A stretch of 64,000 bases of DNA, taken from the NCBI RefSeq assembly GCF_037893015.1, contig NC_133665.1, positions 40,376,537-40,440,536 of the forward strand, written 5' to 3'. The position numbers and the translations under genes are program-made. The notes below the pieces were generated by a model. That model had not been told where the DNA came from and did no database searches. It was given only the letters and a program-made list of their open reading frames with translations. Positions 58,041 to 59,155 of the stretch are shown here, piece after piece (the stretch's first letter is position 1; the number at the start of each line of letters is the position of its first letter). Origin of the DNA: Macrotis lagotis (lineage: Eukaryota; Chordata; Mammalia; Peramelemorphia; Peramelidae).

Positions 58041-58779
58041 ACTTATAGGGAGTGATGACCATGAAAGGGAGTTATGGTTTGGGAAGCCTTAAACATAGTA
58101 AGTGGAGCAAAAGGATGGTCCATTGATATGCTCTCTCCAGAGGCAACAGCTGTGTTGTCTTGATTACAGTTTTCAGAATAAGAGCTGGAGTGGTGGTGAT
58201 AGAGGATGGTTCAAGTGGTTTTTGGTGATCTTGTTTAGTGGATAGAAAATGGCTGAAGTGGGATCAGGAATGCAAAGTCTGAGGGAGCCCAATTGACTTG
58301 GCTTCTCCTAGACATTTTCACTGGCAGTTGGATTTGGAGGGTGGATTAACAGTAGCAGAGAATTTTGGCAGGTTTTATCATGTTCTTTGTAGTATTTCTT
58401 TATCCTCTACAACAGATGTTGGCTCATGAGCTGAAATTATTTTTATAGTATACTATTTATAAATATTTATCCTGAGCATTACAATATGGAATGACCATGT
58501 GACCTGTGAAATGTTTTTTTTATATAACCAATAATGCCAAGTTCTTTGTTTGCCTTTTTAAAGGAGAACTCATGAGTCATTCTTCAATTTAACTGCAACT
58601 TTCTTTTATTCTCAGTCATCTCCTTGTCAATCTCCTTGCTACCTAGACCAGAAATGAAACTTAGGAGAACTTAACCATTTCATCCTCAGAATTCCCAACT
58701 TGGAGTGCAAACATTCTGACTAGTTGTTGTGTCACTCGTCTGCTACATCTAGCTATGGCTTCAGCTATGCTACACTTTA
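58041..58779. other. Intergenic stretch without a recognised feature
   Basis: I see no exon or named repeat in it. Confidence 0.45.
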
Positions 58780-58947
58780 TTTTTTTTTATTTTTTTATTT
58801 TTTTAGGTTTTTGCAAGGCAAATGGGGCCAAGTGGCCCGCCCAAGGCCACACAGCTAGGCAATCACCAAGTGTCTGAGACCAGATCCGAACCCAGGTACT
58901 CCCGACTCCAGGGCCAGCGCCCCATCCACCGCTCCACCCAGCCACCC
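58780..58947 (-). repeat. Short marsupial SINE, antisense, with A-to-G hypermutation on its sense strand
   Basis: A T-rich tail (58780-58804) leads to aggtttttgcaaggcaaatg and ends ccacccagccacccc. The perfect 15-bp direct repeat ctatgctacacttta lies at 58765-58779 and 58948-58962. Compared with the other copies here, about 17 plus-strand T are replaced by C (ggttaag to ggccaag, gcttgccc to gcccgccc, aattattaag to aatcaccaag, gatttgaa to gatccgaa). On the SINE sense strand these are A to G. Only about three other private differences remain, two of them at CpG. Confidence 0.93.
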
Positions 58948-59155
58948 CTATGCTACACTTTAGCCACTTCTCCAGTCACTATGACTTCTTACTGCCCATC
59001 ATCTTCTCCCTCCCTCTTTTTGGAACTATAATGAGATAAGTTCTGTCATTCCTCTTAAAAAGAGTATGTCAATATACTACCCTATAGCTTCATTTACCAT
59101 CCCTGTAACTTTCTAAATCAAAACTATCCTCCCAGGTTACTTCACCTTTGTATCT

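Follow-up and report, generated by a model that had tools for sequence, protein, structure and literature searches.

Clustered A-to-G changes in a WSINE1-like copy and its sister copies suggest that edited SINE RNA was copied back into inherited DNA

Human Alu transcripts are ultra-edited by ADAR. According to the available text of the report (PMC3197674), the changes are dense, one-strand A-to-G changes within a SINE, with G depleted upstream of the edited sites and in excess downstream. These changes are in RNA, whereas those described here are in the genomic DNA of inserted copies with target duplications. The APOBEC-edited retrotransposons of PMC2873906 have their deaminase signature in retroelement DNA, in clusters of one type as at this locus, but the change is G-to-A there and A-to-G here. 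As far as the accessible part of that paper goes, G-to-A clusters outnumber A-to-G clusters in retroelement DNA and the A-to-G clusters are tied to RNA traces. WSINE1, in its available description (PMC3403934), shares with the present element a tRNA-related part, a short CORE, a poly(A) tail, target duplications and an expected propagation by L1; the same text divides it into 66 subfamilies by co-segregation and has no mention of A-to-G hyperediting. In its accessible text, PMC4982230 describes as undetermined what part ADAR editing plays in the evolution of Alu subfamilies. Among the literature matches listed, no report describes genomic SINE copies with fixed A-to-G clusters of the ADAR type; that search leaves out all bioRxiv preprints and most subscription papers.

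The copy studied here lies on the minus strand of a 64-kb window, the whole stretch of DNA analysed (G000:C8:40376537-40440536), in a genome of 3.66 Gb, and all counts below refer to this one genome. A sequence-only reading of the window had reported a SINE copy at 58765..58962 with perfect target duplications, and its sequence and coordinates are right. The body aligns without gaps to a family reference typed by hand (Table 1). Body positions run from 1 to 145, the window coordinate being 58949 minus the body position, and the first G of the body (58948) is common to the body and the 5' target duplication. The perfect duplication and the A-rich tail of the 58804-58948 copy are hallmarks of target-primed reverse transcription. 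We take the element to be WSINE1-like, WSINE1 being a marsupial CORE-SINE; this naming is ours and rests on the published description. By eye, the structure agrees with what the available text of PMC3403934 gives for WSINE1, that is, a tRNA part, a 41-nt CORE, poly(A) and propagation by L1.

Table 1. Parts of the SINE copy and its unusual A-to-G sites, in window coordinates
Feature	Coordinates	Strand	Remarks
5' target site duplication	58948..58962	-	15 bp, identical to 3' copy
SINE body	58804..58948	-	145 nt, gapless alignment to typed family reference
A-rich tail	58780..58803	-	without any G
3' target site duplication	58765..58779	-	15 bp
A-to-G at body 10, 19, 26, 28, 31	58939, 58930, 58923, 58921, 58918 (span 58918..58939)	-	baseline-filtered comparison
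A-to-G at body 46, 62, 63	58903, 58887, 58886 (span 58886..58903)	-	baseline-filtered comparison
A-to-G at body 82, 83, 85, 89	58867, 58866, 58864, 58860 (span 58860..58867)	-	baseline-filtered comparison
A-to-G at body 111, 112, 120, 121	58838, 58837, 58829, 58828 (span 58828..58838)	-	baseline-filtered comparison

Relative to the typed reference, the copy has G at 17 A positions. The earlier count of about 17 A-to-G among roughly 20 private differences thus stands for 16 of them; the seventeenth, at body position 57 (58892), is set aside as an ordinary subfamily variant, since 32 of 51 baseline and control copies also carry G there. The other differences from the reference are four C-to-T (5, 33, 67 and 70) and one C-to-A (16). 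With states at a frequency of 6% or more among 50 baseline and control copies removed, the changes that stay unusual are 16 A-to-G and the C-to-A (16/17 A-to-G), with 0 T-to-C and 0 G-to-A. An APOBEC-type signature was not found in the copy, which has no G-to-A and whose C-to-T changes are all at baseline-variable sites. Several of the A-to-G changes are in adjacent pairs, as had been read from the letters: TTAA to TTGG at 82-83 and at 120-121, GCAA to GCGG at 111-112 and TAGA to TGGG at 26-28. The A sites preceded by G (24, 28, 42, 49 and 76, with 57 set aside) are mostly unchanged, again as read, position 28 being the only one of the five that is altered. A hidden edit may lie at body position 27 (58922), where copies with 57G and 70T usually carry A; among such copies, 27G is found in 7 of 15 in the edited set defined below and in 1 of 27 in the baseline and control sets, which fits the expectation if A27 was also edited.

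The copy is extreme but not unique. Among 46 unselected copies from the window and the flanks of fetched loci, which remain once copies with more than 40 missing columns are dropped, its 16 A-to-G changes compare with 4 in the runner-up, and it ranked first in the best 40 of 2,449 candidates found with an A-to-G-converted query. The copy L098 (G000:C2:59849405-59849629), however, carries 17 A-to-G changes without counting position 57, with G's also in its tail region.

Since the nearest relatives share many of the G's, these were at first thought to be subfamily diagnostics. Those relatives were chosen by similarity to the copy, several of them being the same place fetched twice, and copies selected by pattern spoke against the idea. 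Selection by pattern uses only a 35-nt core, body positions 79-113, and all rates given for the genome as a whole are drawn from perfect matches to 35-mer cores. There are 136,926 cores with A or G at the eight A sites, and 121,417 of these are all-A. GG at 82-83 is present in 197 cores, 23 of which also have G at 85 and 89, forming a four-G haplotype. At about 1.4% A-to-G per core site, this haplotype would be expected about 0.005 times in 136,926 cores by our own arithmetic, which assumes equal rates. Both 89G and 93G are present in 143 copies. Single changes are common on both strands, at least one A-to-G being found in 15,509 cores (8 sites) and at least one T-to-C in 19,877 (11 sites), by subtraction, as ordinary decay or GC-biased gene conversion would produce. 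It is scarcely credible that such processes made the clusters, which are of one strand within each copy (40 A-to-G copies have 0-1 T-to-C, and 18 T-to-C copies have 0-2 A-to-G) and whose co-occurrence is far beyond independence.

For the comparison of whole copies, 69 of the 197 GG copies were fetched (L039-L098 and L150-L158), most in listing order and the last ten partly for extra core G's, together with 40 baseline copies (L099-L138) and 11 T-to-C control copies (L139-L149). Two GG copies and one baseline copy were dropped as near-duplicates (leaving n=39 in the baseline), and L154, a GG copy, was left out because a small insertion upset its alignment. The 67 remaining GG copies include, besides L154, 40 with at least three core A-to-G changes, which form the edited set, and 26 with GG only. 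Outside the core, baseline copies (n=39) average 0.26 A-to-G changes and those of the first T-to-C control (n=11) 0.27; the mean is 0.35 in copies with two core changes (n=26), 1.59 with three (n=17) and 3.43 with four or more (n=23), while T-to-C changes stay at 0.13-0.36 across the same groups with no rise. The A-to-G excess on the sense strand is strong, as the substitution table proposed with the earlier reading shows: A-to-G makes up 106 of 212 unusual outside-core changes in the 40 edited copies, versus 13 of 117 in the 50 baseline and control copies.

The 5' neighbour of the changed A is strongly biased, in agreement with the ADAR-like preference claimed from the single copy. Outside the core, A-to-G is found at 47 of 152 sites after T (31%) and 33 of 117 after A (28%), far above the 17 of 313 after C (5.4%) and 8 of 194 after G (4.1%); T or A versus C or G gives p=8e-21, or p=1.7e-4 by site (7 vs 13 sites). 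A 5' C is nearly as low as a 5' G. As to the 3' neighbour, the frequencies at TAG, TAC and TAA sites overlap, by comparison without formal statistics. DNA polymerase eta also prefers A after T or A, with a leaning to A-to-G, and error-prone synthesis of this type during second-strand synthesis would reproduce both features. The changes look too pure for such an enzyme, however, since unusual outside-core changes at A in the edited set are 106 to G, 5 to C and 7 to T (106/118 to G), and with up to 17 changes in 145 nt they also look too dense, so this origin is very improbable. Editing shows no correlation with pairing in the predicted self-fold (rho -0.18, p=0.34), and intramolecular structure, considered as the editing substrate, thus gained no support. 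In the last A run, at body 137-141, 1 of 181 cells is changed in the 40 edited copies, versus about 28% for A after A elsewhere.

The edited copies are separate insertions. Of the 88 copies inspected, a target duplication can be recognised in 69: 30 of 40 in the edited set, 15 of 19 converted-query hits and 23 of 28 similarity hits (these two sets being chosen by likeness) and the 58804-58948 copy itself. Of these, 65 have at least four A-to-G changes apart from position 57. Only 34 of the 993 duplication bases compared are mismatched, and 11 of the mismatches are A/G in either direction; the A-to-G clusters therefore stop at the edge of the element, and the restriction of the bias to the element, claimed earlier for one copy, holds for the 69 taken together. 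Deamination of the locus in place should have reached the duplications, whose 5' copies hold 90 TA and 158 AA. Two of the GG copies, L093 and L094 (G000:C1:920413194 and 920453386), are apparently one insertion duplicated about 40 kb apart; the sites at which they differ could serve to date changes later than the duplication.

A populous subfamily already bearing these G's had been named as the finding that would speak against editing. In the sampled copies, neither a subfamily with a fixed, linked G haplotype nor a single G-bearing source haplotype was found. The G sites vary in combination, with all four gametes in 102 of 105 A-to-G site pairs of the 40 edited copies and 23 haplotypes among the 28 that are complete, and linkage in the edited set is flat with distance (Spearman -0.08, p=0.48). 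The bases at 27, 57 and 70 are gac in 15 of the 40, agt in 8, ggt in 7 and others in 10, so that two or more subfamily backgrounds are represented. Mosaics of G sites could also arise if a small, G-richer SINE lineage had mixed with the main family through gene conversion or template switching, and many of the G's are indeed common to the closest relatives. Such a lineage is nevertheless an improbable source: only 23 cores have the full haplotype against 121,417 that are all-A, the combinations and the flat linkage are as just described, and the edits flank the background markers on both sides.

The sequence-only reading had proposed a genome-wide search for further copies, sense against antisense. 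This reveals a recurrent A-to-G class, but also a smaller T-to-C mirror class that was unforeseen. The first control, TT to CC at 87-88, has extra T-to-C in only one of its 11 copies and gave an early impression of pure sense bias; that impression was overturned by a better mirrored control, CC at 80-81 (135 occurrences), and by a T-to-C-converted query, which found relatives at up to 90%. The 20 copies fetched with this query have 9-19 T-to-C changes each, and all ten T sites that are changed in 17 or more of the 20 precede A or T, as if the founder of a T-to-C-rich lineage had been edited on the opposite strand. Among 100 of the 135 cores with CC at 80-81, about 60 also have 88C and 92C and belong to the lineage, about 17 have no further change and about 23 are others, tallies that were retyped by hand and may be off by one or two. 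Eight lineage members with flanks (L219-L226) all carry SINE pairs. L219 and at least six others share more than 1 kb that is about 78-88% alike, so that a larger repeat is the usual carrier of this lineage, while L221 shares only the SINE region with L219. At about 850-1860 in each of these loci, SINE pairs and AAT repeats lie within a larger interspersed repeat in at least 7 of the 8, and a further diverged SINE is found near about 1600-1860 in 5 of the 8.

Outside the lineage, 20 of the 23 other copies were fetched. Six have lineage-like AAT or C-run flanks (L201, L205, L207, L210, L213 and L214), L209, L216 and L218 share one flank, and L212 is misaligned. The 11 left after these exclusions, with L209 kept, and L164 form a strict set of 12; the 18 T-to-C copies of the one-strand comparison above include the six with lineage-like flanks, and the strict 12 gave the same outcome. 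Outside the core, T-to-C in the strict set is found at 18 of 45 TA, 15 of 58 TT, 3 of 70 TG and 1 of 48 TC sites (p=9e-9), the antisense version of the ADAR context. L208 shares most of its changes with L209, and since four gametes are present in only 18 of 66 pairs of this small set, shared ancestry may be stronger here than in the A-to-G class. Because a class that is in part a true lineage shows the same T/A context, which lends some weight to a G-richer lineage, context alone cannot exclude descent, and for the A-to-G class the variety of haplotypes and the separate insertions carry as much of the argument as context does.

Even so, L164, L200 and L202 are single insertions, each flanked by a target duplication and ending in a sense A-tail, and have 7-11 T-to-C changes with no A-to-G beyond position 57. 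Since editing of sense RNA cannot make such copies, a second route is needed, which may be editing of first-strand cDNA, gene conversion from antisense sequence that had been edited, or inheritance from a founder copy that had been edited. By a rough estimate scaled from the listed fractions, some 106 A-to-G clusters have one or more extra core changes, against perhaps 17-31 T-to-C clusters outside the lineage. Adenine deamination at the DNA stage, acting on either strand, whether on cDNA in an RNA:cDNA hybrid or on the locus itself, would account for both kinds of copy and their mirrored contexts. According to the available text of PMC7955049, the catalytic fragment of ADAR1 edits DNA strands of hybrids in vitro, but ADAR1p110 gives no significant editing of fully matched hybrids. 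Such an origin is unlikely, as editing of the first strand yields T-to-C and not the commoner A-to-G, and the in-place form meets the duplications with their few A/G mismatches.

The sense class is probably best explained by ADAR-type editing of SINE RNA before reverse transcription, and the capture of a hyper-edited SINE RNA proposed by the earlier reading is thereby supported for this class, the editing being read from DNA. WSINE1-like sense RNA would have paired into double-stranded RNA, in which an ADAR enzyme would have hyper-edited A to I; the edited RNA would then have been reverse transcribed, with I read as G, and the cDNA inserted by target-primed reverse transcription. We infer ADAR as the enzyme, the RNA stage and a duplex partner, probably an antisense SINE given that the edited sites do not follow the predicted self-fold. 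As for the scarcity of changes in the last A's, the 3' end may have been single-stranded or protected, or it may have had to remain A-rich for priming. The available text of PMC10877575 states that inosine preferentially pairs with cytosine and that inosine clusters can affect reverse transcriptases. Duplex formation is a difficulty for the RNA-editing reading, because retrotransposition-competent Pol III Alu RNA is unpaired according to the accessible part of a review (PMC5974252). The T-to-C mirror class also counts against the simple story, as does position 86, an A after A that is changed in 0 of 40 edited copies, though it is G in 3 of 19 converted-query hits. A broader account, in which adenosine deamination was recurrently written into the genome on either strand of SINE duplexes and a multi-copy lineage later grew from one or more antisense-edited (T-to-C) copies, is tentative and somewhat doubtful.

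Dozens of sister copies across the genome carry dense changes of the edit type, which suggests a flow of sequence from edited RNA back into inherited DNA. Since they are at separate insertion sites, edited copies would constitute a fossil record of germline SINE RNA editing that can be dated and counted. With them one could test if edited RNA passes to descendants as DNA, and if editing holds retroposons in check or makes them more diverse. If the reading of an antisense-edited founder is true, RNA editing would have created new repeat lineages besides scarring single copies.
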